64,000 bases of DNA from Labia minor. Taxonomy: Eukaryota; Arthropoda; Insecta; Dermaptera; Spongiphoridae. This document shows positions 22,368-64,000 of the stretch, in pieces. The notes beneath the pieces were generated by a model. It was not told the origin of the DNA and searched no databases. It saw nothing but the letters and a program-made list of their open reading frames with translations. Where the stretch lies: NCBI GenBank assembly GCA_963082975.1, contig OY720348.1, positions 23,179,146-23,243,145 on the forward strand, written 5' to 3'. Made by a program: the position numbers and the translations under genes. How positions within the stretch are numbered: the stretch's first letter is position 1; every line of letters starts with the position of its first letter.

Positions 22368-28164
<5,797 letters not shown>

Positions 28165-29714
28165 AACCCAAAAAATAATAATATAATTTAAAAAAATTCA
28201 CCAAGCTAAGCAATATAAAAAATTTCTTCATGTATACCCAGTGAAATAAAAATATACTTTCAATAAATATTATTTTATTTTGTTTATGAATCATAAAAAT
28301 ATCCAAATTTGTTACTAATCATAATAATAATAAGTCTAATAAAATTTTTGTATTTATTCCATTCTCTTTTTTAAAATTATTATTTATTTTTACTTTTTCA
28401 GAATCCATCAGCTTTTTTTTCTTTTACTTTTAATTTTTATCGATAGATAATTTTGTCTGGTCTATTGATATAATTAATCGTAATTAATTTCTAATTTATT
28501 TTAATAAAGCAAGATAAAATATTGTAAGTATTTATATTGTTTGGTTAATAATCAGAAGAATTGCCTCTAATTTATTTTCATCTATATATAAGCCCATTTT
28601 TATATAAATCTATTCATGAAATGACTAATAAAATAAAACTGTTTTCTAACCTATTTTATTTTATAAATTTATAGAAATTCTTAACTCAGAGTGAAATTAA
28701 AATTCAATAACTATTTTATAATATTTTTTATAATTAAACATTAATCTTAGTAGATATTCATTCAAGATATATTTCCTTAATGATACTAAAAAAACAAAAT
28801 GAATTATCTCAAGTATTTAAAATAATATTCTTAATAATTTAATATATAATTTGAAAACTTCATGTATCTTTATATTTTAATGAAGTTAAATAAATCAAGG
28901 AATATGACAGTTTATAAATGCCAATTAATATATTATATAAATAAAGAGACCAATCGTCCTTTCGTAGGCTCTGTGCTTCCTCAAGATGTGTCTAACTGTC
29001 CTCTTTTTCAATATTTTACAACTAATCCGTTTATCTTTGAATTATTTAAAAATATGATGGTGCAATTCTGAAAATCATGATTAGACGCATACACACCACA
29101 TTCTGAGGATAATAACGAAACATAATTGTTGTATAGTTTTTTAAGTTAATAAAATGATCATATATATATTTGCTATTTACTTTTTTCGTAAACTTTTTGT
29201 CCTTTTAATTATAAAAAAATAGACGAAATATTAATGGAATTATCTATTATTTTAATTATGAAATATGAAAAACTTAATATATTTTTTAATCATTTTGAAT
29301 ATTTAAATTATTTTTTTTTTTGTTTGCTACTTTTATAAATAGTTTAATAGTTATTTATATAATATTATTTTTATTATTTATGTTATATATTTCTTGATTT
29401 TGGATATTTTCAATTTCTTTTATAGTTTTTCTAAAATTTATTAATATAAATATAGAGAATATTGAATTAATTATTAAAATTTTTCTATTATAAAATAAAA
29501 TTTTAATATATAATAAAAATTTAAAAATTGTAATATATAATAAAAGTTTAAGTTTCTGGATAGGATTAAATTGTTATACAAAATATAGTATTTATTTGTT
29601 TAAATTATTTATTTATTTGTAAATATAAATTGTTTTTGTTTCTATTATTTATTGTATAGTTTATTATTGTTATATTTTATTTATTATATTCTAGTCATGT
29701 TCAATAAAACATAG

Positions 29715-30040
29715 GGTAAAGTATACAGTCATTGGCCCCCTATCACTAAAACACAAATAATAAGAGATTTTTATTTTAAAAATTGTTCTATAAACTATGG
29801 TTATGTAATCGTTTGTTGAATTGTTGTATAATCACTATAGAATACCTAGGCCAATAACTGTATTTTTTTTTAAAAAAAGTGCTTATTGAAAATGTCATGA
29901 GAAAATGATTTTTTTTTATTAATCAAAATTCTCATGTTCTGCAAACCTAATTTGACACAGATTGTTCCGCAATTTGCCCAGATATGCATTAAAGACTGCT
30001 AGGAATTGATTAAGGGGGCCAACGACTGTATGCTTTACCC
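29715..30040. mobile_element. Tc1/mariner-type MITE, 326 bp, TA-flanked
   Basis: Left end GGGTAAAGTATACAGTCATT then GGCCCCCT; reversed right end GGGTAAAGCATACAGTCGTT then GGCCCCCT: about 26 of 28 bases identical. TA sits on both sides (29713-29714 and 30041-30042). There is no transposase frame. A third, degraded piece of the same terminal sequence, AGGCCAATAACTGTAT, lies inside at about 29850, as if an earlier end had been internalised. Confidence 0.85.
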
Positions 30041-30719
30041 TACAAGTGAAAAGAAAAAAAAACAATTAACTGTTAAGGATATGGAATGTTCAATATAATC
30101 ATTAAATTAATAAGATGAAAAATAGATGATTTTTCTAGTGAAACTTGTTTTTCAGCAAAATTTGGTCTAATTTAATATTCACTTTATTCAGATATTTAGT
30201 TCGGATACTAATGAAAGTTCATCGTTAATTCATATTAATGAAAATGCATCGATTTCTGAAATATTCTAGCATATATTAATTATTTCAATGTGACTATTTA
30301 AATATTACTTTTGATTGGAACAAAATCATTTTTAATTTTTAATAAATCCATGATTATCTTTACTAACTAACTAACCGCTCTCTAGAACGATAAATAAATT
30401 ATCAATGAGTCTCTTCGATTGGGGTTAAAGATAGGGGAGAAGATTTGGCGGTAAATAATTAAGTGTAGTAAATTGAAAACTAATTTCTCTTAGGACTCTC
30501 TTAGAATATTTTTTTTATTTCTACTGAAAATGATCAAATTGAATTATGAAGTACCGGAAGATACATAGTTATATATATATATTTATACTGAATTGAAATT
30601 ATTTTTTTAAATTTGTTTATTGTAAAAATAAATTGATAGATCTTTATAAAAAATTCAAATCCATTTCCAATAATAGAGACAAAAAACTATTTATTTATTT
30701 ATTTAGAAGAATGCCCTGA

Positions 30720-31060
30720 TTTTTTTGTAAATTGCTTGATCCAAGGCAGTCGAGCAAGGCTAGATGGCTAGATGGCGTCAAGAAATGCGCATGCGCACAT
30801 TAACGTTGGCGCTTGACATTCTCAGCACAACTCATTCGAAGCACATTGCTTAATCTTTTAACAAAATGTTAGCGTGTAGCCATACTAATAGTGGCTAAAC
30901 TAATTCAAACCCAAATATGGATTATTTATAACAACTGGGGGAAAATTTTGGAAACCTCAAAAAGGTAATACGATCTACGTATAACAGGTGCACTTATATA
31001 CAGCCCCCCTCTCTCTCCTTCGCTCCCACCTACACTTCCCAATATTATAATCCGCTATTT
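30720..31060. promoter_or_regulatory. GC-richer island with an NRF-1-type palindrome, promoter-like
   Basis: TGCGCATGCGCA at 30786-30797 is a perfect match to the NRF-1/Ewg palindrome. GATGGCTAGATGGCGTCA lies just upstream (AGATGGCG resembles a YY1/pleiohomeotic site) and GTTGGCGCTTGACATTCTC downstream. About 200 bp further on come TATATA and a CT-rich stretch (about 30995-31030). Such clusters mark TATA-less animal promoters, but no gene starts visibly next to it. It could serve an undetected non-coding transcript or be chance. Confidence 0.3.
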
Positions 31061-33508
31061 AAGTATTTTTAACATGTGAGATAATATATCAAGAGCTATA
31101 ATTATAATTTAAAACCAATCTTGTTTTTATCCTTTCCTAATTTATAAAAAATTACCAAGATAAGCCATATGGGGAATATAATGAATGAATTATAATGAGA
31201 AAAAAATTTAAAAATAAAAAAAATTATAATAAATAAAATAAAAACATTGAAAATCACATATTCGTTATTAATAAATAAGCATATTTTTTTTTATAATCGA
31301 AGGCATATGTTTTTGACATTTTCTGGTGATTATAATCCAATGGATATAGTATAATAATGAAAATATCTTATTCTTCATCTATAACTCTCATAAAACCACA
31401 TGCACTGATTTATCAAACTGATGTATTTAAAAAAATATACTTATATATAAATAAATATATATATATATATATATATTTAAATCAATCATTAGTTTTTATT
31501 CATTTATACTCTCCTAGATTTTATTATTAATTGAAAAGTGAATAATCGAAATTTATTTTGCTTGAAATATATATTTTAATTAATTGGAATTGATTCTTGG
31601 ATCGAGTTCTTTCATGGGGTTCTTTTTCAATGAATCCCCCCATAAGAGTGAATAACTAGACAGAGCGATCAATAGAAAGTTTCTTTTCAGGGTCCCCGAT
31701 TCTTATCAAGTCGTTTGGATGACTCAGTGAGCATTATTTCGTTCATCAACACCGTTACTACTTGTAAATTTATTTAGAAATGAATTAGATCATAATTAGG
31801 ATAAATAGAACAAAAAATATATACATATTCAATAAAGCCTTCTTTTTTTGCTCCCTCTTATGTCCAAAATAACTCAATATCCCTCTCTCGCCTCCTCTCC
31901 TCCTCCCCTATTGACGTATCTATATGAATTGTTGAACTGAAAAGAATAAAAAATAATTCATTCAAAAATAAAATACAATTTTAAAAATATAAACCAATAA
32001 CCAAGAACATTAAATATCTTATACAACATTTAAAATAAAAAAAATAATAATTTAATCTAATTTACCAACAAGTAAAAAAATGAATTGTTGTGATGATCAT
32101 TATACTATAATTAATTTTTTTTATTATTCACGAGTTTTTTTTTTTAAGAATTTAAGAATTTTCATTCAAATAATAGAACAAAAGACAAAAAATACAAACA
32201 CCATTTAATTACTTTATTATCAAATAAATCGTTCAAGATCCTCTACTTCTCAAATAGTTAAAGGAAATATTTATTTCATAAAATAATCTTTAATTGAAGC
32301 AACCTATCGCTTATATATTATGATTATTATTAATAAATGTTTAAAAGGATCTCAAATATTTAAATATTTGAATTTTAAACCAACAATCAAAATTTTGAAT
32401 CAACAATCAAGCTAACATAATATAAAAATATAATGGAATATAATGCAAAATATATATAGATTTTATAATCTTTAATCAAGTTTTATTATATCTCAATGAT
32501 TACATTTATTTGATCTATTTATCACTTATGTACAATCAGCCCCACACCTGTCTTATTTACGTCCATGTGGCCCTTCCCACGTGCTTTTCTGTCAGATTTA
32601 TGGTTCATATGGTTAAACCTCGATTTCTTCATTTAATTGTTCAAAATAATCTACAGTATATTTACCTTTATCAAATTAAAAAAAATAATGTAAAGTTACT
32701 TATTTAAAGATTCTTTATTCAATTTCACTTGTAGTTTATTATACTTAATATACTATCTTCAATGAATTTTCTAATATCATTATCATAATTATTTGCATTT
32801 TAAAATTCAAAATCATCGAATAAGATAATTGAGCTTAGGTATTTGTATTTTAAATAATTAAATTAAATTTTCTTAACTTTCGAGTTGATTTCATTAAAGA
32901 TAATTATTTATTTTTTTCGAAATTGATCTTTCTCCACTCTCATAATCCTTAATTTTAATTGTGTCCTAATTTAAAAATATAAACCAATTTTATTCCAATT
33001 ATAACAATTTCAATATTATAAAAATTAATTTTGTTATTTAAGTTATAAATGAAAAGAAAAAAAATATATATATTTTTATATATCTATGTGTGAAATAAAT
33101 TCAATTTGAATAAATAAAATTTGAAAGGAAATCATTTATAAATTTACTATGGCATCTCTGTCAGCATAATAATAAATCAATGAAACAAAATTAGGTTGTG
33201 ATCACGAACTGATCCCCCACTTATTATATTATAATAATATATCAAATTGGATCTCGTTCGAAAATGTTACAACCGAAACAACCAAGATTGGCTACACTTC
33301 TCCCCCTCTCCCACTAGTCTTAATCTTAAACACGCCCCTGAAATGATGATATTGGTTACTTCTAAGAGGGAGAAGTAAGTGTCAACAATTGCATTTCTAA
33401 ACAGCCCTCTCATCCATTTTATTCAATTTTGATTCCGGTGAATCCAAAATATATTATTAGGAAGATATTTAAATTCCATCAAAAATAATTAAATTTATTT
33501 GATTAAAT

Positions 33509-33547
<39 letters not shown>

Positions 33548-33759
33548 ATTGTTATTTTAAAATTATTAAACATCCTATCGAACCAAACAATATGGAACGT
33601 TCCGCACTGATTTTTTAGGTCACTGCTAATTTAATTTTTGATTAATTAATATAAAAAATTCAATTAAATAAACAATTTATTTTTTTTACCTTAAAAAATA
33701 TTCATATATTATATAATTTATTAGTTAAATTGAAATTGATCAATTGTTAATAATATTAT

Positions 33760-34530
33760 ATATATCTTATCTTATTACACTAGCAAAAATTGTATATATA
33801 AATATATATATATTTGTATTTTTGAAATATTAAACCGCTCTAAGGATTTTTTTTTGAAATTCACACTATAGGTAATTTTTAGAAAGAAAAATCGATCCGT
33901 ATTGTTTTGAACCTCGGGAAAATCATCTTTGTTAGTTTTATCTTAATTTAAAATAGGATTTTTTTATAATAAAAAAATGGCGCGGGATAGCGCTTCCTAA
34001 AATACAAAATATTATAAATAAAATAAAATTAAAAATATTTATTTTAATAATATTTTGTAATCAAATTACGAAATATATATTATGTTATATCTACAGGCCA
34101 TACTTTTCTGCCTTTCAGTGCATTAATACGTACGTTTAAGGTAGTGATTCTCAACCACTTTGCCGCGAGATTACGAGGCTCTTAAGTTTTTTTTTTCTAA
34201 ATTTTTTCAATTTGGTTCTAAAAAACAAAAAAGCTAAACCCTTTTTGGGACCACTTTTTTCAAAATGGTAAACTTTAAAACTTATCTTTTTCTTTGTGTG
34301 CCGCCAAATTTTTAAACCGTTAAAAGTGTGCCGCGGTAAAAAGAAAAAGGTTGAGAATCATTGGTTTAAGGGCTGTATATTTTATGACTATTTTTTTTTA
34401 ATTTATGTTCTTTTAAATTATTATTTATTTTAAATAATAATCTTAATCTTAAATATTCATAGTCCATAAGGATTATTTTTTTTAAAGTACCAACTCACAG
34501 CTCGGTGGACTAGGTGCTATATATATATAG
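33760..34530 (+). repeat. Dispersed repeat family A, longest copy, interrupted by a hAT MITE
   Basis: It runs from the AAGATAAG/ACTAGCAAAAATTG end through AAACCGCTCTAAGGATTTT, AAAGAAAAATCGATCC.., AAAATGGCGCGGGATAGCGC, TTTTGTAATCAAATTACGAA and TGCATTAATACGTACGTTTA to CAGCTCGGTGGACTAGGTGC. Other copies are at 2996-3560 (inverted) and 37090-37600. The first and last parts are continuous once 34142-34363 and one duplicated 8-mer are removed. Confidence 0.8.
34142..34363. repeat. hAT MITE nested in family A repeat, perfect 8-bp duplication
   Basis: A 222-bp element with ends TAGTGATTCTCAACCACTTT and, reversed, CAATGATTCTCAACCTTTTT. GTTTAAGG flanks it on both sides (34134-34141 and 34364-34371). 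Two other family A copies show the uninterrupted site: GTACGTTTAACGGCTGTATG at about 37422-37441 and, reversed, CGTACGTTTAAGGACTGCAT at about 3154-3173. This is a clear case of an occupied site versus paralogous empty sites. Confidence 0.9.
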
Positions 34531-35289
34531 GAAATTAAGCTAATCTTAGTTATTCGTTTATTAATGCAAGTTAGGTAAAAATATAATTTTAATTGTGAGA
34601 AAATATATAAATATGTTTATTCGGGTTATATTTATTATTTGTTTATAATTTTAAATTTATTTTAATCTAATTTCTAAAATAATTTATTTATGCTTAAAAT
34701 TGATTAAGCTAGATTATTTTCTATTATTATTTTTCACTTTAGAATAGAAGTATAAATAAACACTTATTTATGTAAGTTTTTTCTGTTAAAAATTTTAACA
34801 TCATTTCTACTGTTCTAATTATCTTACTAACGCATTTGGTAGGGTCTTGGTATAATCTATTTTAAACTTATAACTTAAAACCCAATATATAACTATCATA
34901 TATTAATTGCAGTTAGTTATTAATTTAATTAATTTAAATAATTGTTAAATAAAATGAAACTGGATAAATTAAATAACTACGAAAAATGTTATTTTTTTTT
35001 TTTAAATAATTTTATATATTTTTTTATCGAAACCGTGTGAATATACAGCTACAGAAACATTCATTAAATTATCTTTATTTTGTCCTTGGGTTCTAATGAT
35101 AACGAAGAATTTGCAAACGAGATCTCCCATACGGATATTTCAACGTATTTCGAAATTTTGATTCCTAAACTGTTCATTTGCCGTTCTAGTAATTTTCAAT
35201 TTGATTATACACTCAATGACTTACCTATTTTCAATTAAATATATTAAAGACATGACAGAGAAAATTTTTCATTAATAATTTCATCTTGT

Positions 35290-35850
35290 TTTTAGATTGC
35301 CTATCTTAAGGCGCATTTACAATTTTGCTTTTTACCGACCGACGATAGTAAGGGAAGTATTGTTTTCACACCAAATTTCACATGTGGAGATTTTTACATA
35401 TCTCCACGAATCATGCATTTTCTTAACAGAAAAAAGTATTTTTAGCATGATGTCTGTCCGTCCGTCTGTCCGTCTGTCCGTCCGTCCGTCCGTCTGTCCG
35501 TCCGTATAGATGTGTACAGCCTGAACGGCTTAACGGATTTTGATGAAATTTGATATATTTACTTAATGCATCAGTGGGATGAATTGATCAACTTTTGGTG
35601 CAAATCCGGAAACCGGAAGTGGTAGTATTAGCGATCGACGATAAAAAGGGAAGGGTTATTTTCGCACCAGATTTCACATAAGGAGATTTTTTTACATATC
35701 ACCACGAATGTATTGGTTTTATCCTCGGGAAAAATCATCTTCATTATGTTTTTCTTAATTTAAAATTATATGACGTCACCCAGCCCTTCATGACGTCACA
35801 GCCTCGGGTAACGCCGGCAACGCCGGCTAGTTCAGCTATATATTATAAAT
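35290..35850 (+). repeat. Dispersed repeat with a (TCCG/TCTG)n block and CTAG-type end
   Basis: A stretch of TCCG and TCTG tetramers (about 35453-35506) sits between two related arms, each with ACCGACGATAGTAAGGG / ATCGACGATAAAAAGGG and TTTCACAT-GGAGATTTT. The far end holds two TGACGTCA octamers (35771 and 35791 region) and CGCCGGCAACGCCGGCTAGT. The GC-rich hairpin-like GCCGG..CCGGC directly before TAGT resembles the 3' terminus of Helitrons, but hairpin spacing is not classical. Confidence 0.6.
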
Positions 35851-36309
35851 AAAATAAAATTAAAAATATTTATGTTATATGCCTATCTGTTTTTTATTAC
35901 ATTAATAGATATATTAAAATTATTTGAAATTGTTTCTGTAGCTGGAAATTAATTTTTTTCAAACCGTCGGTCGGTTCGGACCTGGCCACAGGTCAACTTA
36001 TTTTTTATACTTTAAATCAACAAGAATTAAACTTTATTTTTCTCTTTTATCTTATGGCTCTCTTAAATTGACTACAAATTGCATCTGCTCCATTCTACTG
36101 ACCTTTTGACAGGTTTGAACAAAAAAAAAAAATTGTATTTTTATCGACCCCTGTTCCGTTTTGAAATTTGCTAATCAATTTTTTTTTTTTAATTTTACAA
36201 TAAAAATGATTATTTATTATTCAAGGACATACTAAGAACTGAGAAGTAAATGTTTTTTTTTTATTTTAATACTATGATAGTATTTAATTTTGTTAGAACA
36301 ATTAGTATT

Positions 36310-37600
36310 TCAATATATATATATATCTTATCTTATTATAATAGCAAAAATTGTATATATATATTTGTTTTTTTGAGATATTAAACCGCTCTAAGGATTT
36401 TTTTTTTGAAATTCACTTTTATAAAGAAAAATCGATCTGTATTTATATATTCGGGAAAATCATCTTTATTAATTTTTTCTTAATTTAAAATAGAAATTTT
36501 GATAATAAAAAATTGGCGCCGAGCAACGCCGGTTTCCTTAAATACATAATATAAAGTACCGGGACCCCGAGCCTCGGCTCGGTACTTAAGTTAAAAAAAA
36601 TGATTCATTATTATTGGATTTGGCTGGTAATATACCTGGGACACTGAGCTCTCGCTCTACCCTTTAAAAAATATTGATATACAATTCTTTAATTATTTAT
36701 TACAATTATTAAATGTATTAAATAATATTTTATTTAAAAAATATTAAAAATTATAAAACTATCTAAAACTTAATTAATAAAAGAACAATGAATAAATAAA
36801 TCACGGAAATAGATAAAAAAAAATGCACGCGGCGAGTTTCGATCCTTCGAACTCGGGGAGTAAAAACAATTGTTCTAACCACTGGTCTAAGTATTTTGAT
36901 AATAAAATTAAGATATTTTTACCATCTTTCGAAGACATTTATTTGTTTTGTTGTTTTTTTTTGAGAGAGATTAATAAATATATATATATTTTATTAAAAA
37001 TAAATATTTTTAATTTTTAATTTTAAATTAAATAATAAATTTTAAAATATTTTAAATAAAAAAAAAATATTAATACAATTTCAGTTAAAAAATAAAAATG
37101 GATGTCATGTGACGTCACCCATATATAATTTTAAATTAAGAAATAAATAATGAAGCTGTATGTTTCAAGAGATATGAACAATAAAACTTAATTTTTCTTT
37201 ATAAATACTATATCTAGTGTGAATTTGAAAAAAATCGTTAGAGCGGTTTTTGAGAACCCATGGCTATATATATATATATATATACAATTTTAGCTAGCAT
37301 AATAAGATAAGATAAAATAAAATTAAAAATAATTATTTTAATAATATTTTGTAATCAAATTACGAAATATATATTATTATGTTATATCCACAGGCCATAT
37401 CTGTCATTTGGTGCATCAATCAGTACGTTTAACGGCTGTATGTTTTATAATATATCTAGTTTTTTTTTAATTTATGTTCTTTTCAATTAATTGAAATTGT
37501 TTCGTATATTTAGTCGTTTATTTATTTTAAATATTAATCTTAATTTTAAATATTCATAGTTCATAAGGAATCATTTTTTTAAAGAGACCAGCTACTATAT
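36310..37600 (+). repeat. Fragmented family A repeats with tRNA-like relic between
   Basis: 36310-36560 repeats the TAGCAAAAATTG..AAACCGCTCTAAGG..AAATCGATCTG part of family A and ends near CGCCGAGCAACGCCGG. 37090-37600 holds the complementary blocks AAATCGTTAGAGCGGTTTTT, AATTTTAGCTAGCATAATAA, GTAATCAAATTACGAAATAT and AGTACGTTTAACGGCTGTAT. At 36825-36893, on the minus strand, TAGACCAGTGGTTAGAAC (A-box-like) and GAGTTCGAAGGA (B-box-like) suggest a tRNA-derived relic rather than a functional tRNA. Confidence 0.55.
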
Positions 37601-37779
37601 ATTTAATCTAGCACCTTTCAAGCGTAATATATGCATAATTTTGTTCCTAAAAGAATTATTGAGAAAGATAAATTGGAGTATTTTTATTGAATGTAAATAG
37701 TTCTGCAAGTTGAAATGAATAAATGAAATTGTGAGGGTAAATAGAATTGAGTGTGAATACTTGAAGTATTTCCTGAAAA

Positions 37780-38178
37780 TCAAGTCGCCACCGTTGCTTT
37801 GGTTGCGTGTTGGTGTGTTGAGGTCTCTGGAAAGCACAGCGCTTTGACTCCATGGCAAGGGGGGTGGGGTGAGGTCTCTGGAGGGGAGGGGCCCACTGGT
37901 TGCCTGGTCGCTGTTGAATAGAATAGCCAACCAGAGAGGAGAGGTTTTTAGTGCCAGAAGAGACTTGCTTGTCGTACCATTCGGCGTTTGTTCGTTCGTT
38001 CGTTCGTTCGTTCTTTCGTTCTGTCGTTCGTTCCATCGTTCGTTCGTTGTTCGTTATTTGTTTGTGTTGGTTGTTTGGAGAGTGGATCCTTGATCGTGAT
38101 GCTTGTCTTCGCTACATGACTCGTTGCCGTTGATTCTCTGGATATCGTTTGCATCCAAGTCTTCTGTTAAGTGGAAGC
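37780..38178 (+). promoter_or_regulatory. numb promoter / 5'UTR region with TTCG repeats
   Basis: A distinctly GC-richer block in an AT-rich setting, directly upstream of the first numb codon. It contains GGAGGGGAGGGGCCC (about 37879-37893) and an irregular TTCG tetranucleotide array (about 37989-38059) that would fall in the 5'UTR if transcription begins upstream of it. No TATA box is evident. The transcription start cannot be placed from sequence alone. Confidence 0.5.
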
Positions 38179-38746
38179 ATGGGCCAGGTGCCATCGTCCC
38201 ATCATCAACCGCTTGACCGAGCAAGGACTGCGTCCTTCCGTCGTTCCCACCGACATGCTCGAAAGGTAACCAACTGACAATCAATCCAAACTAAACCAAA
38301 ATCCCAATTCCCAATTCCCAATGGTGGTCACGCAGCGAGTTTCCACTTATCCATCCAATATTACCTACCGGCAACCAACTTCAGTCGGCATCAGCCCCAC
38401 CTTGACTACCTTACTTCCATTCTCTTTCTCTCTCACTCACTCTCGCTTTATCTCCACCCCACGGTTACTGCTGCTCTTGCTGTTTCATTCTCTTAAAAGA
38501 AAAAAAAAACACACACCTCTTAATAAAACTCAAAAACATCTGCCTTAATCCATCAACATAACTCCAAGCGAACTACACTCGACCACATTTGCTTTCTACC
38601 AGAAATTCAAAATTTAATCGAGTGACATTGAATTTCAAAATTATCATCAAAACATCGTTTACACTTGAAACACAATATAAAAATCCAATAAATTAATAAA
38701 TATTATAATTTTAATAAGATTACATTTGTGTATTTATTTTATTGAA

Positions 38747-38790
<44 letters not shown>

Positions 38791-39098
38791 GGATAGATAA
38801 ATAATATTAATTAATTAAATAATTTCCTTATATCCAAACCGAACCGAAAAAACCTAAAATTAGGAATAAGAGAATAATTAGTGAATTAGTCAATAAAACA
38901 TTACTTAATGACATCCTATTTCGAGGTTCATAATAAGTTAATCTGGCAAACTTTAATAATTTTTATCTCGTACACTAGAAACGACCCGCAAAAATTGCAT
39001 AAGAAAAGTTTATTTGAAATTAAAAAAGGAATCCACTGGTAAAGTTTTATCCAAATCCATGACTGGATGTCCAGTTTATATAATTACCATATATTATA

Positions 39099-39134
<36 letters not shown>

Positions 39135-42059
39135 CAAACTACTATTAATGTTATTTCAAGTCAAAATGTCGAATTTTGTATACCCTATCAATTACACCTC
39201 AAATCAAATTGTATTTATTATATATGATTATTTTTTAAAATAAAAGTAATACTATTTATTACGTTAATTATTTAAAATTTAGCTGTTTTATATATAAATA
39301 GTATTCTAACTTAATATATTTCGAAAATTATATAACATTGAACTAGAGCAATTTATTTTTACAAAGCTTTTCTCCCCTATTTTACCCCGATTTCATCCCC
39401 CTCCCCATTCAACGGTTGTAAAAGTGTTTTTCTATAAAAGATACCCTAACCACCAAAAAATCCCTAAACAGATAATTACTTTTCTATTAATATTATTAAA
39501 AAATAAATATTGAACTATAAATGATTTTTTCATAAATATTTAAATCAATTAATAAATGAAATGATCCCGAACTATATATTTTATACATTAAAATTAATTT
39601 TATTTTAAATTAATTAGATTATATATATATATATGTATGTATTTATATATAAAGATATCTTTCTATATAAAACCAAAGAATACATTTCGATTTACCCCTC
39701 CATTTTCCAAAAAATAAGATAAAATCATCACTAAAGAGATAAATAATTCAAGATATAAATGGCTTTTGTTGATTTGTCATTTAATTCACCTTTTTGAATG
39801 AATCAAAACAAAAATAATAGAGATTAAGGAATCAAGGATATAACTTGACAGCTCATCGTTCTTATGCAATTTTAAAGTATTTTTTTTTAAATAAACGAAA
39901 AAAAATGATTATTATATTTAATATTAAATACCTATATGCAAGTTTCATATTAAACATGTGAAATTTCGAAATTTTATATTTATATTAGAATATAAAATAT
40001 TATGAAAAAAATGACAATCGTTGCTTTATCGTTCCATTGGTGGAGCAACTAGAAGCGGCTACAGGAAGCTGGTATATAATAAACAATGTATGTTGTATAT
40101 TAACTGTCAAAACATATCGAATTACATGATTTCATATCATAACAATCATTTTTATTTATTATTATTATTATATATAACATATTCCAAATTATTTTCAAAA
40201 AAAAAAAAAAATTTTATACAATTTTTAAAAATTAATTAAATATAGATTTATTTAATACCGACATTGAAACAAATAATTGGGTCCAAGGTTGAATTTCTTT
40301 TGTTTAAATTTGCACTAATAATTTCCATAAAGGGCTTTTGAATTCATTCTCTCATGCTTATTACGTTTTTTTCTCATTCTCAAATGTTTATGTAATTTCT
40401 GTTGAAGAACTCCTTTCTTCATCTAACATTCATTTCACTTTTTCCTTCACTTATTCATTCATTTTTTTTTTAATCAGAGATAAGGTGGATTTTACAATCG
40501 AAAAACAACCTTTCCCAATAGATACCTTGAATTTTCTTGTTTCTACATTAATAATAATAAATTTATATTTAATAATTACTATGCTGAATGATGTAAATAT
40601 ATATAAATTATATGTCATGTCATTGCCCTAGCTAATTTTGAATTTATACAAATTTTTAATCTAATAAAAAATTATTTATCTATCAATAATAAATTTCATT
40701 GGAATATTTGACCATTGATAGATAAAAAAAATTAAATTAATATTTAATTAATTTTGTTATGTTTGAGTTATGATGATAAGCCATAAAACAATCCAAATTC
40801 AAATCAGAATAAATAAAATTAAATTTAAAAATAATATGGGGTTAAATGTGTAACATTTGGAGGTTAAAGGTAACTGAAGAGGTATTTATAAAACACTTCA
40901 CACATACCTCTTCTCTGAAAAATAAACATTCAATTATTTTGTCGATTATGTCCTATATTTGAATGATATGTTTTTCAATTTCTAAACTATTTGCTGAATT
41001 CTTATTTTTTTATTTGGAATGACAACTTAGATGTATAACTTATTGCAATCTATATAAAGGGACACCTGTTTAATTTATGTATTCATTTGATACCAGAAAA
41101 ACTGAAACATTTGTGTCTAGACAATTATTATATCGGAATAGAAATATCAAATTCAATCTTAGTTTCAGTTTCAAAGTCATTCAGTGGCATAAAAAATCAA
41201 TCTAAAATTATATTATTTTACTTAGTTAACTGATTTTTAATATTTTTGATAGTTATATCAATTATTTTAATGGCCATTGAGATTCTGGATAGTACAACAA
41301 TGTTGTTATTAAAAAAAGTTAGGTTAACTTACGATACTTTTGAAATCAATTAGGAAATTTTTCTTTTAAATTAATAAATAATGAATAGAACGGTTTTTAT
41401 ATATATGTATAATTTGTCTACCGAGATTTCATTTATTTTAGAATTTCTTTCAATAAAATTTATTTATTTATTTATTTTTTGCTTCTTGCTGGACTTTGAA
41501 CTCTGACTGTACTATACTTGACAACTTTCCAATGAAACTCTAATTAAAATTAATTAGTTAATATAATTCAATTGTTTTAGATAGCTACTTATATTATATA
41601 TAATGGTGAATTAATGTTGTACAAAAAAAGAAAGTATATAAATAATAAATAGAAATTAGTCTAATTACTATACTTGTTTTTAAATATATTAAATAAAACT
41701 AATGATCTTTTGCTAAAGAATAGACGCTATCAGATTGTAAACATAATTTAAATTTTTTTTCCTTGATTATTAATATTCTTTGATGATTATAGAACTGAAA
41801 TATTGAATTCACATTTTTATATTCTATTGAAACATCTTAAATAGAAAAAATGTTAATAATAATGATATGTAGTATATATAAATGTTTAATTTCAATAAAA
41901 TATATTCTTTATATTTAGTTATATATTTATTTAATTTGTTAAGATATTTAAGATCCGTTATGAAATAATATTTTGGCCATAACTGATCATTAAAGAATTT
42001 TAATAAAAATAGATAATTTATTTTATATATTGAAACTACATTTTTTTTTTACAACTATA

Positions 42060-42096
<37 letters not shown>

Positions 42097-45000
42097 TATA
42101 TAAGAATCGCTATTACTGTTTTCAAGTCATTCTTTCTAGAAAGGTGTATGGTAACTTTTAAAAGTACAAACATTTCAAATAAAGTAATATAAAAATATTT
42201 AATATTAATATTTTATTGTGTGATAAAAATTGGTTGATAATGATGATGATGAAATGTCATAATGTGTGGTTGTTTCGTGGTTGGATTGGAATCTCGATTT
42301 ATCGGTGAAGGTAACTTGGAAATTGCCGTCGTCCAGTTGGGCTGCGATGCTCTCTCCAATGCTGAGGTGAGAAGGCGCTGCCCTTGAAGGATGGCGGGTT
42401 CGATCCCCTCCTTCCGAGCTCAAGACAAGTAAGCTTCTTGTCTCCAAATGGAATTCCATTCTATCCACCATTCCAAAGACATGGCCTCACTTTGCCACCT
42501 TCATCGCCGTTTAAATATTTCATTAATTATGATATGAAACCAATAATATTGAAGAGGGTGGTTATCATCCCTTAAAAACAAAATAAAATATTCAAACGAA
42601 TACATTTTGTTTACCACAGAAATTTATATACATATATATTTAAGAGATTTGTCTGTATGTTATACTCTTCAAATTTTAATAAAACTATTAATTAGGCCGA
42701 TTGTAATTAATAATTAAATAAATCCTTTTAAATATTTGGATACTGTAATTAACTAATTGCGTTGTTATTTTAATTAATAGACTTATATTTTACCAGAAAA
42801 AATAGGTACGTAATGGAAAATGGAAACGACGATATCTCCTTCACTTCCTTTAAATACATTTTTTATAATAGTTAAAAAAAAAAATAAACTAATTGAATCT
42901 TAAATGCTTTTAGCACCACATACCATCCAATTTCTTTCAAATTTAATAAAATAAATAAATAAATATTAATTTATATATTTATTATAAAATTAAAATATAC
43001 CCTTGAAGAGTTTCAGGTTCAGTAGTTTTGAAGGAGAATGCATTGAAATCATTATCTAAAATATTTTAAATAAATATGTTTAAGGACTTTCATTTTTCAT
43101 AAAGCTTAAATGAAATAAAAAAAAATTAGGTAACTTATGATAAGATAATTAAAAAAAAAAAAATTAAATAACATTAGTAGTACATTGAATAGAGATAAGC
43201 GATGTTTGATAAAAAAATAAACTTTACATTAAGACCACATTCGATGACTGAATTGTATTGTAATATGACAGGTGAATTTTTCATTTCAATTAATCAATCC
43301 TATTTCAACGAATTCATAGGATACTTTACAAGGACAATGAATCCTTTCGATTCCAAATACACTGCTACTAGAATATTTAATTAATCTTTCGTTTAGCAAT
43401 CGTGATATTGTAATTAAATTACATAGAATATACCAGTCCATTGCGAGGTAACATTGCTATCGAATTTTTTTTTTTCATTATTTATTTATTAGTAAATAAT
43501 AACTCACTGTTTGTCGTTTTTCTGTACCTCTACCATAAAAAAAAATTATTTTAAAATCCACTTTAATAAGGAAATAATAATTACTTAAATGAATACTCAT
43601 AATATTGCAATTTATTATACATATTACAAATAATAATTAATTATCTATTAAAGGATTTAAAAATATTAATATAATACTACTACTACTACTACTAATAATA
43701 ATAATAATATATTATATATTTATTTATAAATTAAAACATATTTTTTATTAAGTTACAATAGTTTTGAATATAAATACAATAAATAATTACATAATTAATT
43801 TAAATCAATAAGCTCATTATTCGGCATATTTTTTTTTAAACCAGTGCAAATAAGATTGTTTTAACATCTCTGCACACACCCAAGCCATAATATCGTTTTT
43901 TCCTTGTTATTCTAATGAAACTATTTTTACAATTTATTGAATATTACCTCATTAATAATACAAAGGGTATTATTCTAAAATACACTAAATAATAAAGTAA
44001 ATTTTAATTTTTTATTTATATATTTATATATATATATATATATTCATTCACTTTCATATATTTTTATTAACTAATTTATTAGATTATTTAAGAGTTTTGT
44101 TATAATTTAAAATCTATTGTTCCATTGTGATTTCATATTTATTTTATATTATTTTACTCCCATCGAACTGAACCAAAAGAATAGAATTTCCTTGTAGAAA
44201 TGTGGGTCCCCTTGCTATGAATACTTAGGCGAGGTCGAGAGCCTTGAGAAATGATGATGTCATAGAGGCTGAGCATCCCCGATGAGCTGTACTGGGCTTT
44301 TCAGGTAATATTTGATGACTCGATGCTGATTAACATAATATTTGTTTTATATGAATCAAACTTAAAACTCATATGTTTAGAATGTCTGGTATTGAAACCA
44401 TTAAAAAAAAAATTAATTATCTAATGTGACTAACAAAATAGTCACTGTATTTAACTTTTAGGTACAATTTATATTTATATCACAATAAATTTAGAGAAAC
44501 TTACTAATATTATTATACAATGTTTTAGTCTTTTCTACCTAAAACATCTTATATTTATACCTTTACAAAATAAATTATCTCTAGAGAGACAGATGTTCAA
44601 ATAAAAAAAGAAAACAATTAATTATATATATTTTTCTAAAGGTATTTTCTGATGTGGGTTTTCTTTAGTGACCAATTTCACTTGAAATAGAACATAGGTT
44701 ATTTTCATTTGATTCAATAAAAATTTTCAAATAATTTTTAATATTCCTTGTGTTTAAAAGAATTTAAAATGAATTACTTCTAACACTTAAATCAATACAA
44801 CAAGCAATCTTTTAATTTAAAGAATCCTTTATTATTATCATTATTATTATTATATTATTATTAATTCCTGGTTATCTCCAAAATGGATATTTCTTTAAAT
44901 TAATGCTATTTGGAAGTAGGTCAGGTACGGGAACCACTTATCCACCCAGCTCTTGTCATCTCTAGAAGCTATCTTCTACTAGGATAAGTAATGAAAAAAC

Positions 45001-48000
45001 GCGGTCAAGAAAGCTGAGACGAATAAATATATTAAAGTGAAATTTGTGTTACATGATTGCTCTATTTTTTATAGAAGATTAAAACAAACGATAAAATATT
45101 AATAAATTAACACATTTTTTTATAATTTTTTTTCTGATTACTTTATAATAATTCAGCCATTTCTATCAATGTCATTTTTTTTTAAAAAAATAAAAATTTT
45201 AATAAAATGCGTCCACGACACCTCTGTCCAACCTTTAGCTATGTGGACTAAACAAACACCTACGAAAAGAATATTGTTAAATAAATATATATATATATAT
45301 ATAAAATAATAAAATTAGTCTTGTCAAAATATATTTTATTAACTACCTGTACTATCATTTTTAAATATATATGTATATAGAATAAGAAACAATATTATTT
45401 TTAGTTACAATGTTGCTCACATCATGATAGATAAATAAAAAAATCATGATTATAATAATTAAAACTTAAAACACATTCGGTTTTCAATTCTATTAAAAGG
45501 TATTATCATTAATCTATCTCTTTTATTCTATTTAATAAATTATTGAAAAATAATTTTAATATTATTTTAAAAATGAATTGCATACTTGATAAGTATTATT
45601 TAGAAATTTATAATCTTATATACAATTTATATACTAAACTATTTTATATATATTGTCTCTCTCTATATATATTTACTCATTGGAAAAAGTTTAAACAGTT
45701 TCTAACCTTTTGTTGTTAGATCTAATCAAATTTTATATTTTATTTTTCATTAATAATAATTATTTTACCAAATTTTTCTACTTATTAATATTATATATAT
45801 ATAAATATATTGAATTTTAATTTTTGAAATATTTCTTTTAACACATATGTTATTAAAAACATATTACTAAACCTATTTTTCTATTTTGAATATTGAAATT
45901 TTGATTTCTGATGAAAACTTATCTTATTTTATTCATCATTAATTTGAGTATTTAAGTTTTGGACAATGTTTTCTAGAAATACATCAGAACAAAATCTATT
46001 AATTAATAATGTAAATTTGTATATTTTTTATTTAAATTATAAATTAGTCATATTGTTATTATAAATGGTTATTCTTATATTTTTATAGTAAAACAATTAT
46101 ATATTCATCAACGTTTAAATTTAAACGGATTTTATTAAAAAAAAATTATTTTTGTTTATTACGATATTATTAATTAATTTCCATTTGAATTTTTAATTTT
46201 ACCAATTGATTAACTTGTTTTGAATTTACTTTGAAATTTTTGTTTATCTTTTCGACAATCTTAGTTTATATATTTTTAAGTGTAATTTTGAAAGTTTTAA
46301 TTAATATGAAACGACTCATTTAATATAAAAATTTTCAGCATTGTCTAATATAATAAATATCCGCCATTTTCTTATTTCTACTTGATTTTTTATTTTTCTC
46401 TGTTATATGTGTGAATGTTTTATTTTCTATTTCTTTAAATTTAAATAAAAATGATTTTCAATTTTTAGGTTCCGATAATAAAAAGATTTATTTTCCTGTG
46501 GGAATTTACTTTTTTTTTAATTGCGAACTTATTCACTTCTTTATTATTATTATTTGGTTGGGGTGATTTACAATAGGACCCTCTTATTGACCCAGCTATT
46601 GTTTGTCTCCTTAGGGTTCCGAAGGTTCCGGAGGAAGAATGGATCGGCTACGTCGCTCTTTCCGCGATTCCTTTCGTCGACGGAAGGAACATCTCCCAGA
46701 AAGTTCCAAACCCCATCAATGGCAGGCTGATGAAGCTGGGGTTCGCAGTGGAACATGCAATTTTCATGTAAAAGTGAGTCTAACGATGAAGAGAAAGTAC
46801 AATGTTTTAAATGTAAAAAAATATATTTAAATGAAAAATAAAACTTAGAAATTATTTTTTTTTTTTTATTTATTAACAAATGTTATAAAAAAATTACTTG
46901 AATAATTTAATTTTATTATAATTTTTTTCAATTATTTCATTCTTTATTACAATTTTATAGATTTTATATTTCGTAATAAATAGTTCATATTTATTTTAAT
47001 CTGTGTATATACTTCCCTATTACAATGATAAATATGAATTATAATATAAAATATAAAATTAAAAAAATTTTAATTTTAAGGTGACCAACCGTCCCCCTTT
47101 AGGGAGGAAAGTCCTTCTTTTGTAAGTGTCCTCCTAACTGTCCTTCTTTTTGATATCTCTCCCGTTTTTTGAAATATTTAGGGCATTTTGTACTTTTTTC
47201 AAAATCTTTTCAATTTGCTTCTAAAAAAAAGGTCAAACGTTTTTTCTGGACTAAGCTTTTGAACATTTCCGAATTTTTTTCAATTTGCTTCTAAAAAAGG
47301 TCACCTTATTAATATACTTAATTGAATAATATTTATATTTGTCAATAAATATAATTTTTTTAATAAAATTCATTATTTTTAAATTTTTATTTTATATAAT
47401 CTATTCTTTTTTTTTTTTTTGTTTAATTTAATTGTTATTATATTTTTCAGTATTTAGGTTGTGTTGAAGTTTTTGAATCAAGAGGAATGCAAGTTTGTGA
47501 AGAAGCTTTAAAAGTTTTAAGAGTAAGTAATATTAACAATCAAAAAATTAAAAAAAAAACTATTCTAATTTATAAACATTTTTTTTTTTTTGCTTAAAGA
47601 ATTCTCGTAGACGTCCTGTAAAAGCTATTCTTTATGTTTCTGGTGATGGACTTCGTGTGGTCGAAGATGAAACAAAGGTAATTCTGCTGATTAATTAGTA
47701 AATAATGTCATTTCAATTATCGATAGAGATTGATAATAATTTTGTCTTAATCTATTTTTAATTGTCTTCAAATAAATTCGTTATCTACATTTTTCTATTT
47801 ATTTATGAGAGCATCATCGATTTTTTACTAAATTATTATTATTGTTGCTTTATTATAAAATAATAATTCTATTTCTTCTATATTCAAAGAAAAATTACAT
47901 ATCTTATAATTTGAATATACGATTGATCAAAAAATATCTAATCTATGTGATTTACCATTAGAAAGATTTTATTTAATTTTACTTGTTGCATTTCTCTTCT

Positions 48001-50235
48001 AATATTTACTGAATTGTTTTTAGGGTCTCATCGTTGATCAAACCATTGAAAAAGTTTCCTTCTGTGCCCCTGATCGTAATCACGAAAAAGGTTTTTCGTA
48101 TATTTGTAGAGATGGAACTACGCGACGTTGGATGTGCCATGGATTTCTTGCTCTTAAAGAATCAGTAAGAATTACAAAGCTTTGAACTACGGAAATCGAA
48201 TAATAATAAACGGATGTTATTGTTTTTAGGGTGAACGGCTGAGTCATGCTGTAGGCTGTGCATTTGCCGCTTGTTTAGAACGCAAGCAACGTCGTGATAA
48301 AGAATGTGGTGTAACGATGAGTTTCGATCCGAAAAATGCCACTTTTACCAGACAAGGAAGTTTCCGACAACAATCCTTAACGGAAAGAATAGAGAATGCA
48401 GGCGTGGGTGTAACAACTAATTCTGAAACGACTCAACCGATCAATTCTTCAAATCCAGGACCTCCCCCTGCTAAACCTGTAGTCAATCCGTTTGCAATTG
48501 AACGGCCACATGCCACGATGTCGATGCTTCAACGACAAGGTTCATTTCGTGGATTCCAACAATTGAGCCAGGCATCTCCATTCAAACGTCAAATGTCACT
48601 TCGCCTTGGAGAATTACCGTCCAATCTTGAACGTCAAAGATCTCTTAGCTTGGAGTCATCCAATGACCTTCGATTGCCTCCAAGACTGCGCCAAATGGCA
48701 AATAAACAAGCTGGTGAATGTTATTTGATTTTTTTCATGATTATATAATATCCAAACAATTTTCTTATATATCTATTTATCAAAAATAGTTTTATATTTG
48801 TATGAAAAGTTCAAAATAGATTGGAAATGAATACTATGGTTCCATTCTATTTTTGACTGTGTAAACTAATTAAATAACCTATTCATATATTTCTTTTGAA
48901 AATTTTTATTTCTATTTTTAATTTAATTTTTTTTAATTTTAAATTCAATTTATAGAATATCAAATTTGAATATTTCGAGAATAGTAGAATTAAAAACATG
49001 AAATAAAAAATAAAAATAATAGAAATTTTCTTATGCTAATATTTATTTAATTAACTCACAGTCTTCTTTAGGATATATAATTCTATTATATTTTTAATAT
49101 AAAAGAGTTGACTTCGATTTTAATTACAATATATATCTATTTGTTGTTTTCAGTAAGTCCCATACCTGAAATATCTCCAGTAAATGCTGATACTGTCAGC
49201 GCCATGTGTCAACAATTGTCCCACGGATTATCTTTACTTACAAACGATGATCCTAACTCTAGTTCTCAAGTAATTATATTTTTTAATACTTTGTTTACTT
49301 AGAAATTCAACAAATTTTGATTAATATTCTTTTTCAGACTTTCTCTAACTCTATCTCTAAACAACTCTTTGCCGATATCACGAATTCACCAAATCCAAGT
49401 TCTGGTAATTTCCCAAATTTATTATTTCATTAAATTTACATAAAATAAGAAATCTTTTTTCTATTTCAATGGATTTAATATTAATTTTTTTTTTTGTTTT
49501 GATTTTCTTTTTTGTTTAGCTAACACCAGCTTGGAAAATAGTTTTGTCAAGTTAAATAATTCTATTAACAATAATAATTTAAATCAGAGCCTTGACGAAT
49601 TGCCCAAACCAGCAGTTTCATCTAACCTTTGGCCTTCGGGTGCAGAGACTTCAATAAATTCAAGTGTAATTGTAAATTCATCCACTAATGCTTCACCTGT
49701 ACCTTGGGGAACTTCTAATGCTCAGACAAAAGTTGAATCTTCCATAGTCTCGTCTGTGCCTGCCACTGTTATACCTGCTCCAAGGTAAATCATATTTATG
49801 GATATACTAGCATATTTTAAATTGTATCGATAGTAATAGAATGACGAATTTAATTAATTGAAATAAATTTTAGATTTAGAATCATTGCAATTTTAATTTT
49901 TATCTCTACTTGTGGTCATTAATCTGATTTTCTTTTTATGTTTGTTTACCCCCTCTAGTGGCCTACCTAAGCCTGACCAGTGGTTGGGATCTTTGGTAAA
50001 AGCTAGTCCTCCTAGTCGACGTGCACCTCCCATCGGACAACACTCAAGAGCGCATTCATTGGGATCGGCTGAGGCCTTCTTTTGTTCTAACGGAGATCCA
50101 TTTGACGCTGAATGGGCTGCTCTTGCAACGGGCAGACCGGGGGGTGCTCCTCCTCCAACAGCTGCTGTTGCCCAGCCGGCGCCTCCACCACCTATTGCAC
50201 CAACTAACCCTTTCGCCTTCCAAATACAAATGTAA
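38179..50235 (+). CDS. numb: Numb (PTB-domain cell-fate determinant), complete, 10 coding exons
   Basis: A membrane-associated adaptor that antagonises Notch and is inherited asymmetrically in neural precursor divisions, working through endocytic partners. Exons: 38179-38265, 46615-46773, 47451-47522, 47600-47677, 48024-48164, 48230-48713, 49154-49269, 49338-49404, 49520-49784, 49959-50235 (stop 50233-50235); 581 residues. The first exon encodes [16 protein letters not shown] and a basic tail; it resembles the start of fly Numb (MGN...HEPLER) and fits the N-myristoylation pattern. Residue 38 starts [16 protein letters not shown], the basic aPKC-target segment and a known internal start in flies. 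The PTB domain follows ([64 protein letters not shown]). Then come [19 protein letters not shown] and [12 protein letters not shown] phosphosite contexts, [10 protein letters not shown] (AP-2 type) and a C-terminal NPF at 573-575 for EH-domain partners. Intron 1 is 8.3 kb. Confidence 0.93.
38751..38785. repeat. (TA)n microsatellite, longest of many
   Basis: An uninterrupted AT dinucleotide tract of about 35 bp. Comparable tracts occur near 9664, 33511, 39104, 42067, 52697, 53381, 57160 (preceded by TC repeats) and 58757. Their abundance is a general feature of this genome. Confidence 0.9.
42280..42500 (+). repeat. tRNA-derived SINE in numb intron 1
   Basis: GGCTGCGATGCTCTC and GCTGAGGTGAGAAGGCGC are followed by GGATGGCGGGTTCGATCCCC, which carries a perfect B-box GGTTCGATCC at about 42395-42404. 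The A-box region is degenerate and no cloverleaf closes, so this is a SINE head rather than a tRNA gene. The body continues for roughly 100 bp towards ATGGCCTCACTTTGCCACC. Confidence 0.6.
44161..44304 (+). other. Unexplained GC-richer island ending in a splice donor; possible alternative numb 5' exon
   Basis: The sequence complexity resembles that of exons here, and it ends GGGCTTTTCAG|GTAATA. The next good acceptor downstream is that of numb exon 2 (46615), from which translation could start at Met38. ATGATGA at 44252 with later CTGA motifs also recalls a C/D-box snoRNA, but no closing stem is evident. No protein similarity is recognised. Confidence 0.25.
47078..47309. repeat. Terminal-inverted-repeat element in numb intron 2
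   Basis: Begins AAGGTGACCAACCGTCCCCC and ends AAAAGGTCACCTT; the outer 9 bases (AAGGTGACC) are perfectly inverted. Inside, TTTCAATTTGCTTCTAAAAA occurs twice (about 47210 and 47279), as an internal duplication. It is non-coding and the flanking duplication is unclear. Confidence 0.65.
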
Positions 50236-60790: not shown

Positions 60791-61197
60791 TTTGGGTAAA
60801 GAAGACTAACTAAAAAAACATCTCTATTTATTTTGCTCTCTTTTTTTTTTATTTCTTATAAATTATCAATGGATTTTAAAGTTTAACTATAATATATTTT
60901 TAACGAATGATTCGCTATGTTACATTCACTTACTCTTTCAAATATTTAATATGATATATTTATGTAAATGAATCAGAAAAACATGTTTAAATCTTTAATT
61001 GTGAATTATTAAAGTGAACTACTTGAAAATGCAATGTGCCTCATTTTAGTACAGGTAACAATGAAAAACATTTTCTTTTTTATTTTTCAATTACAATCTA
61101 AATGGCATACATTAATTCTACCATTCATTCTCTTCTATTCTAGTCCTAATTGATAATGTGATTTAAAGAGACGAAGAATTTATAAAATTCTATTAGC

Positions 61198-64000
61198 ATG
61201 TCCGACGAAAAATCAAAAGAATGGCAAATGGAGCTGTTGATGGAGAAAATTCGGGCAAAAGCTCCACAATACAAGCCTTTAGGAGAAAGTGCCAAAGCAT
61301 TGAGAATGTCTTTATTGGTATAGCAATTTATATAATGAAATTGAACATAAAATAAAAAAAAAATAGATATATAATATGTTTTTTTTAATTTACTTTTTTT
61401 CAGGAAAAACGATATCCAATAGATAATGTAGAAAGGAGTCAACTTCAAAAATGTTTAGACATTTTACATAATTGTCTAAAAGTAAATTCTCTACAGGGAA
61501 TGGTTGAAAGGTTGGAAAGTGTTACACGACAACTTGGGTATGAAATCTTTTGAAAATTATATAATATTTAATTGAATATAAATAGAAAAAAAAAACTGAA
61601 ATAAAGAAATCTTTTTAATTATTAATAAAAAAAGAGAGAAATTTCAAAAACAATCTAAATCCAAAATTTTAACTTTGTAAAAAATTATTATTAATTCATA
61701 AGAGAGATTTTAGGAGGAAGAATTTCCTAAAACAAGTCACTTGTTTATATTTTTGAATATCTTTAAATTTTTTGTTTATCGATTATTTAGTATATCATTT
61801 TTTTATTCTTTTGTAAGAATTTTATATATAATATAATATTCTCAATTACAAAACTAATATATTACGTTACATTTTTTTCTACTATAGATTCTATAAATAC
61901 TCTAACTACAAAACCAATATAAATTTCATAATCATATATAATTTAGAATATTTCATAATTATATGAAATCGAATCGAACTTTAAAGGATTTAAGTATATT
62001 TATTATTATTATTATTTTTTTTTTTATATCAAATATTTTTATTCTGACTTCACAATGGACTTTTTTTATAGTTTTAAATAGATATATAGTTTAAAAGGAT
62101 TGAGTAGTATTTTTAAAGGTTTATTGTTTAAATTATCTGACTGATAAGCTAGATCATTCTTTTAAATTGCCAATATTCCTCGAGCTTTCCAACTTCTGAA
62201 TCAGATACAAAAAAAAAAACAATTTTCTCATCACAGTAATTGGCTAGGCTTTGTTTCTCTCATCTTGGACTTTCCCAAAAAGATTTATTAATTCTCAGTC
62301 CTATTTTCAACCCCTTTTATTCTCAGAATTCTACTCTACCCAATTTCATCAGATGGAGACACCAGTATATGGTTTGTTTCAAATTTTACTATCCAAATTC
62401 CACACTCTTTGATGAATGTAATAACTATTTTTCGCACAACTCTGACCATTTTACACTTTCAACTTATATATAATTTCTAAATAATAATCTTAACAATTTG
62501 TGTCTTATTTTTTTCTTTCATTATTTTTATTTTATTTTTCAGATTGAAATTTATGGCAGGCCCTTCCGGAAATGAATTATTTATTTCATCGGATATGTTT
62601 TATTTAGAAGTTGTTCTTCAACCGTCAGGGAAAGTAGAGGATGTTAAGATACACCATGAAGCAAAAGTTGAACAACAAGTATATATTCTTATTATTATTA
62701 TTACAAAATACATTTTAAATAAAATTAAATTAACTTATAATAAACTAATACACACATTTAATTACTCAAATTTATCATAAAGTCTTTTTTTTTCTAGAGT
62801 TGCGAAGAGCTTGTTTCCTGTTTGTCTCGTGGGGATTTTTCTGATTTTACTGCCCAACTGGAAGGTCTTATCTCAATATACCAACTCAATGCTGATAAAA
62901 AAGCAAAATGTAAAGCTTTTAGCGCTCTTCAGAGTCTCGAGACTGATTTATCAATGCTTGCCCAAATACAAAAATTTATTAAGGTATTTTACTCGAGTCG
63001 ATTTATATATCCATTTATACAATATTTTTGTAAATAGAAAAAAAATTACAAGATTATAACGAACATATCTTATGATATTTGAAGTCTAATCTAGAAAATC
63101 TATTAATTAATTCATAAAAAATAAATTTATTAATTATTTTTAATAAACGGAATATTTTTTTATTTATTTGTCCGTTAAATATTATATATATATATCTTTG
63201 AATATTCTCATTTATAATATAATTAAATTATTATTATACTATTAAATTATTAAAATATTAATTAGATGTAATATAACAAAAAATTAATATTAATAATCAT
63301 ATTTAAATATAAATTTCTAATAAATTTATTTCAGGAACCTTTCAATTTAATACATAAATCACCAGTAGGCATTCTTCAGCCCCGTCGTGGAGGGCATCCA
63401 ATGAAATTAACATATCTCGTCTCGCCGTATGAACTCCTTGATTCTGATTTAAAGTGTTCTTGGCCTCTCACTGTTGATGAAGTCATCAACAAAGGGTTAG
63501 GTTATAGTGTTTCGGTGTGCCTTGAAGGTTCTACTTCCCATAAATTACCGATTCAACCCCTCATAAGTATTTCATTAACCCAAGCTGGCAAAAGGTAATT
63601 ACAATTATTTTTTTTGTATTTTAAAAATAGTTATATTAACAATAACAAAATATTAATTTCTATGTATTAAATAAGGAACATATTCATTATTTATTTATTA
63701 ATTATATACCTTAGGATATTTTTATTAAAATTTATTTTATTATGATTTCAAACAATGATATTAATATGTTTAATCCCTCAAGCCGGGAATTAAATTTTCC
63801 TATACCAGCTCTCCGGCGTGAATCAAATGAGCGCAAATGCATTTTCTTGCGCACGTACCTAAAATAATTAATATCTCATAAACTACTCAACATAAATTTG
63901 TGAAATTTTCAACAGATGTTAAGGGAAGATGTTTCTTTTATACAAAAAATCAGCTTAGCGTAACTAGAAATTGAGTTCTGAGTGATAAATGTGATAAATT
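61198..64000 (+). CDS. MED1: Mediator complex subunit 1 (MED1), 5' part, first five coding exons
   Basis: Subunit of the Mediator middle module that links transcription factors, nuclear receptors among them, to RNA polymerase II. Exons: 61198-61317, 61404-61537, 62543-62678, 62798-62983, 63335-63594; the reading frame continues beyond the window after codon phase 2. The 278 codons cover the conserved N-terminal domain: [125 protein letters not shown], and a [10 protein letters not shown] block. These align in order with animal MED1. The start codon follows an apparent 5'UTR acceptor at 61143. The large C-terminal region is outside the window. Confidence 0.9.
61538..62542. other. MED1 intron 2 (1.0 kb)
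   Basis: AT-rich. A more complex stretch at about 62160-62460 includes an open frame of 77 codons (62240-62473) with no family resemblance and no splice continuity with MED1. I see nothing functional in it. Confidence 0.6.
63774..64000. mobile_element. Second copy of the piggyBac-type MITE, truncated by the window end, in MED1 intron 5
   Basis: TTAA at 63770-63773 is followed by TCCCTCAAGCCGGGAATTAA, and then TTTTCCTATACCAGCTCTCC with ATGCATTTTCTTGCGC further in. This matches the reversed right part of the 27260-27676 element (CCCCTCAAGACGGTAATTAA, TTTTTCTGTGCCAGCGCTCT, ATGCACTTTCTC). The family therefore has at least two members here, in introns of two different genes. Confidence 0.75.

Follow-up and report, generated by a model that had tools for sequence, protein, structure and literature searches.

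The window analyzed here is a 64,000-nucleotide stretch of the genome of the dermapteran Labia minor (contig OY720348.1, positions 23,179,146 to 23,243,145), and its positions 38179-38265 on the forward strand are assigned from the sequence, with high confidence, as the opening coding exon of numb, of which one gene was found in this species. The contig is 76.9 Mb long, in a genome of 604 Mb. The exon is small, distant from the rest of the gene and easy to miss, and it is very likely real; the gene and its design are already known. Short, remote and probably decisive, this exon provides a clean case of what an annotation built on open frames would drop.

The coding part of exon 1 (38179-38265, + strand) comprises 87 bases, or 29 codons, which specify a predicted N-myristoylation signal and a basic patch with the motif RTASFRRS. 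Its ATG at 38179 is flanked by A at -3 and G at +4, and the frame above it is closed by an in-frame TGA at 38131. The exon ends in phase 0 at the donor AAAG/GTAACC (the slash marks the splice site), is followed by intron 1 (38266-46614, + strand; 8,349 bases, GT...AG), and joins exon 2 in phase 0 at the acceptor ctccttag/GGTTCC, at 46615. The preliminary description of this DNA had placed a 29-codon exon about 8.3 kb upstream with this donor and this junction; its coordinates and peptide are as written there, and the joined frame is open. The same description held that an annotation based on open frames would start at 46639 and lose exon 1. Indeed, a TAG occupies 46612-46614, directly at the acceptor, and shuts the frame of exon 2 there, which rules out an upstream in-frame extension of exon 2; an open-frame annotation would therefore begin at 46639, dropping the exon-1 residues.

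Exon 1 and the N-terminus of fly Numb

The exon-1 peptide was compared with residues 1-41 of fly Numb, alongside all ATGs of the window, on either strand, whose frame runs for 15-80 codons up to a phase-0 GT, i.e. 313 candidates on the + strand and 221 on the - strand (534 in total). Exon 1 scores 48, and the next candidates score 18 and 12. Among 20,000 shuffles of the exon-1 peptide with its MG kept, none reaches 48, nor does any of 20,000 shuffles of the fly peptide treated likewise, for which the maximum is 39. Local scoring gives 44 for exon 1, a value reached by two of 20,000 exon-1 shuffles. The alignment contains 15 identities out of 28 aligned residues. When the reversed fly peptide serves as reference, the best candidate, scoring 15, is again exon 1, and there is therefore a small composition effect. 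As a control on the fly reference, its PTB part agrees by eye with the fly Numb chain of PDB entry 2nmb. The fly-like architecture proposed earlier, with an MG start, the HxPL[DE]R and ASFR motifs, and a phase-0 junction just before MDRLRRSF, is well supported by the sequence.

Exon 1 also coincides with a peak in G+C content. Upstream of it, the segment 37760-38178 (+ strand), a putative promoter and 5' untranslated region, is GC-rich and contains a CGTT microsatellite at 37985-38055. Over 37760-38300, the G+C content amounts to 50% and the ratio of observed to expected CpG to 0.98, as compared with 25% G+C for the window overall. Of all 300-base segments taken in 50-base steps between 28.2 and 46.5 kb, the eleven most GC-rich start at 37701-38201. 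A search of the genome found this 5' region at its own place only. Open reading frames (ORFs) of 6 and 5 codons start upstream of exon 1 with ATGs at 38099 and 38116, respectively; both would fall in the leader, provided transcription begins before them. Further upstream of numb, a GTCC microsatellite of 13.5 copies lies at 35452-35505.

Exon 1 could be a chance open frame, numb then beginning at 46639 or in a different first exon, and the shortness of the exon, its distance of 8.3 kb, its reading from genomic DNA and the unconfirmed comparison sequence would all allow this; the first rank among 534 candidates (48 versus 18), the shuffles (0/20,000 in both directions globally, 2/20,000 locally) and the coincidence with the GC-rich peak speak against it, and it is highly improbable.

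Several points nevertheless weigh against the assignment of exon 1. The fly reference is unconfirmed for residues 1-41, and two fly N-terminal peptide strings were not found printed in the literature searched. The exon is read from genomic DNA, and its donor, GTAACC, is devoid of a G at +5, as are five of the eight other donors of the gene. Neither a 12-residue gap midway through exon 1 nor the 8-residue linker GSEGSGGR has a fly counterpart. Lastly, the search for relatives with numb, made in viral and prokaryote collections, confirmed none of 7 pattern matches in viral_contigs and none of 17 in genome_contigs. A literature search on crustacean numb returned no match. The long constraint that had been proposed for this exon may hold; it draws on one fly sequence, as the collections searched yielded no relative with numb.

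Organization of the numb gene and its product

The joined frame comprises ten exons on the + strand and encodes 581 residues, without internal stop, up to a TAA at 50233-50235. All nine introns are of the GT/AG type, with phases 0, 0, 0, 0, 0, 1, 0, 1 and 2. Exon 2 (46615-46773) encodes the linker GSEGSGGR, a basic-hydrophobic motif and the start of the PTB domain, and contains the possible internal start at 46639. The PTB domain continues through exons 3 (47451-47522), 4 (47600-47677) and 5 (48024-48164), the last of which matches the Pfam PID profile by itself (E = 4.2e-9), and ends in exon 6 (48230-48713), which also encodes the NumbF domain (PF06311; E = 8.6e-30, 103.5 bits against a cut-off of 27). 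Exons 7 (49154-49269), 8 (49338-49404) and 9 (49520-49784) follow, and exon 10 (49959-50235) ends with the stop codon. Residues 54-203, the PTB domain, match the 2nmb chain with E = 4.3e-90. The endocytic motifs are an NPF at residue 265, in exon 6, and a DPF at residue 536 and an NPF at residue 573, both in exon 10. The encoded protein is Numb.

The genome searches were run exon by exon, and their scores cover the best candidates only. NumbF occurs at one place in the 604-Mb genome. A query made of the 227 N-terminal residues of Numb matches eight places, six of them at the numb locus, with exon 1 among these because it was part of the query. The two matches elsewhere are weak (E = 3.0e-7 with 31% identity, and E = 0.67 with 33%) and are taken for other PTB proteins, not for a second numb gene. 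Neither the NumbF profile nor, among the best candidates scored, the N-terminal query revealed a second numb.

Possible internal start at 46639 and the islands of intron 1

The ATG at 46639 lies in the same context as that of exon 1, with A at -3 and G at +4, and a second translation start at this position is plausible. As stated in an excerpt of PMC11889595, alternative starts give Drosophila and C. elegans two forms of Numb, a maternal one that is shorter and a zygotic one that is longer. The second start had already been proposed for this gene; its ATG context and the published two-form precedent speak for it, and the search for a separate promoter or leader revealed none. A short form of Numb may start at 46639.

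A stronger version of this proposal holds that, with exon 1 real, translation from 46639 would yield the main or sole Numb in many tissues, intron 1 supplying a promoter or 5' exon; the myristoylated form would be one of two developmental isoforms. We give this slightly less than an even chance, and it is compatible with the best explanation, in which exon 1 is the first coding exon. Besides the fly and worm precedent (same excerpt of PMC11889595) and the context of the ATG, it is favored by the TAG abutting the exon-2 acceptor, so that a read-through transcript initiated within the intron would begin at 46639. However, intron 1 yielded no promoter or 5' exon that convinces, and the context of the ATG at 38179, with the same A at -3 and G at +4, makes leaky scanning past it improbable.

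The main intronic candidate was a less AT-rich island at 44161-44304 (+ strand), which ends with the donor-like CAG/GTAATA and had been put forward as a promoter and 5' exon of the short form. This proposal is not upheld, the island being a poor 5' exon candidate. Joined to 46615, it brings six ATGs upstream of 46639, the last of which, at 44282, opens an out-of-frame ORF running over 46639, and its ratio of observed to expected CpG is 0.54 versus 0.98 over 37760-38300. The island has no Rfam match at gathering score; eight matches below it, to snoRNA families (E between 0.64 and 9.2), are taken as chance. The island folds no better than shuffled sequences on either strand (z = 1.16 and 1.67). 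A genome search that skips common words found the island at its own place only, and it is therefore not an obvious repeat. A second GC-rich spot of intron 1, at 42201-42600, reaches up to 45% G+C and contains overlapping open frames on the - strand, where a frame of 93 codons returned no Pfam match.

Predicted myristoylation signal and proposed membrane switch

The start of exon 1, MGQVPSS, fits a PS00008-type myristoylation pattern. Such a start is present in six of the 313 + candidates and in none of the 221 - candidates; within 28,200-46,614 on the + strand, it is found at one of 31 distinct ATGs, that of 38179. An N-myristoyltransferase is encoded in the genome (two matched segments). The net charge of exon 1 is +6, and that of residues 38-57 is +5. 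The exon-1 product is probably myristoylated.

We propose that exon 1, spliced over 8.35 kb to 46615, would yield a long, zygotic-type Numb, from which Met1 would be removed and Gly2 N-myristoylated. The myristate, together with electrostatic binding by the exon-1 patch (+6) and the basic-hydrophobic motif of exon 2 (+5), would hold Numb at the plasma membrane, and aPKC-type phosphorylation within the basic patches would release it where the kinase is active. This kinase-driven release seems reasonably likely, if less so than the myristoylation itself. In excerpts of the literature, the cortical localization of fly Numb is reported to be set by its 76 N-terminal residues, including a basic-hydrophobic cluster (PMC11889595), and aPKC phosphorylation to keep Lgl, Numb and Miranda off the membrane through sites in their polybasic domains (PMC6020718; see also PMC5783611). 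An excerpt of PMC6020718 also bears against the switch, stating that some aPKC sites of Numb fall outside the polybasic domain.

Exon 1 might instead be used without being myristoylated, its basic patch alone binding the membrane. With Pro5, and with neither Lys nor Arg at positions 7-9, the signal is less than ideal according to the usual substrate rules, and the net charge of +6 would suit such a role. However, the fit of MGQVPSS to the PS00008 pattern, the N-myristoyltransferase of the genome, and Gly2 followed by a Ser-rich stretch, as in the fly sequence, all argue for a modified Gly2 and make the unmyristoylated form unlikely.

SFR sites and a possible second patch

Numb contains five SFR triplets as compared with 0.25 expected in shuffles, and none of 20,000 shuffles reaches five. 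In the exon-1 site, RTASFRRS, Phe and Arg follow the serine at +1 and +2 and a basic residue precedes it at -3, which is the form RxxS(F/L)R. The same form occurs as RQGSFR at 223 and 284, and RQMSLR at 302 is similar. The triplets of S44 and S48, located in the basic-hydrophobic motif, have the SFRxS spacing in common with exon 1, with no basic residue at -3, and therefore fall outside the RxxS(F/L)R form. By sequence, S19, which is the serine of the exon-1 triplet, S44 and S48 are candidate phosphorylation sites. The fly counterpart of the exon-1 site is presumably KSASFRFS, and we take residues 284 and 302 to correspond to human S265 and S284, and S44 to human S7. Phosphorylation of these three human residues by aPKC and CaMK1 lowers AP2 binding, according to an excerpt of PMC11889595.

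Tentatively, and with the odds rather against it, exon 1 may be a second phospho-regulated basic patch as well as a lipid anchor, long Numb being a two-patch myristoyl switch. If so, exon 1 would set how strongly aPKC must act to release long Numb, and the short form would answer to one patch. With this tandem SFRxS reading, the reason for the two N-terminal forms of Numb becomes directly testable.

Neighboring genes and other observations

The extents of the neighboring genes were judged by eye from open frames. The window starts with an ABC transporter gene (PF00005; 1-10722, + strand), followed by a KIF1-binding protein gene (15961-21017, - strand), with KBP_C in 15961-16791 and 20172-21017. 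The next gene encodes a helicase (PF00271; 22338-28164, + strand), read as RecQ/BLM-like. Its open frame 22620-23363 contains a perfect 72-base tandem duplication (22832-22977), resulting in a 24-residue repeat. Downstream of numb lies the gene of Mediator subunit 1 (Med1), at about 61197-64000 (+ strand). A tRNA scan found none. Elsewhere in the assembly, a mitochondrial-looking contig of 26,497 bases carries two copies of COX1 on opposite strands, one of them reaching nearly to the end of the contig. This arrangement points to an inverted duplication or to an artefact of the assembly. The COX1 frame is open in the invertebrate mitochondrial code (code 5), and 29 further COX1-like matches are located on other contigs.

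Comparison with known systems

The closest parallel is fly long Numb. Both proteins possess the MG start, the HxPL[DE]R core, the ASFRxS motif, a Lys at the end of the segment and a closely similar PTB domain. They differ in the number of residues that precede MDRLRRSF, 37 in Labia minor and 41 in the fly, with the 12-residue gap and the GSEGSGGR linker in the former. The gene structures also differ: the PTB domain is spread over five exons (2-6) in Labia minor, whereas the fly locus is organized differently, and five or six PTB exons are described as usual, with the fly named among the exceptions, in an excerpt of PMC6778778. In the Labia minor gene, a PTB exon count within the usual range therefore goes together with a fly-type N-terminal segment.

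Vertebrate NUMB and NUMBL resemble the Labia minor protein in their PTB and NumbF domains and in their DPF and NPF motifs. Vertebrate NUMB starts with MNKLRQSF and is not known to have a myristoylation exon. The five-exon PTB without the extra exon 3 is a further likeness, as far as an excerpt of PMC6778778 describes it, and the fly-type basic-hydrophobic region is reported not to be conserved in vertebrates in an excerpt of PMC11889595.

Finally, the predicted N-myristoyl group and the basic patches with PKC-type sites recall switches of the MARCKS type, a possible likeness in function for which no sequence relation is claimed. Polybasic aPKC targets such as Numb have themselves been likened to MARCKS by the authors of PMC6020718, in an excerpt of that work.

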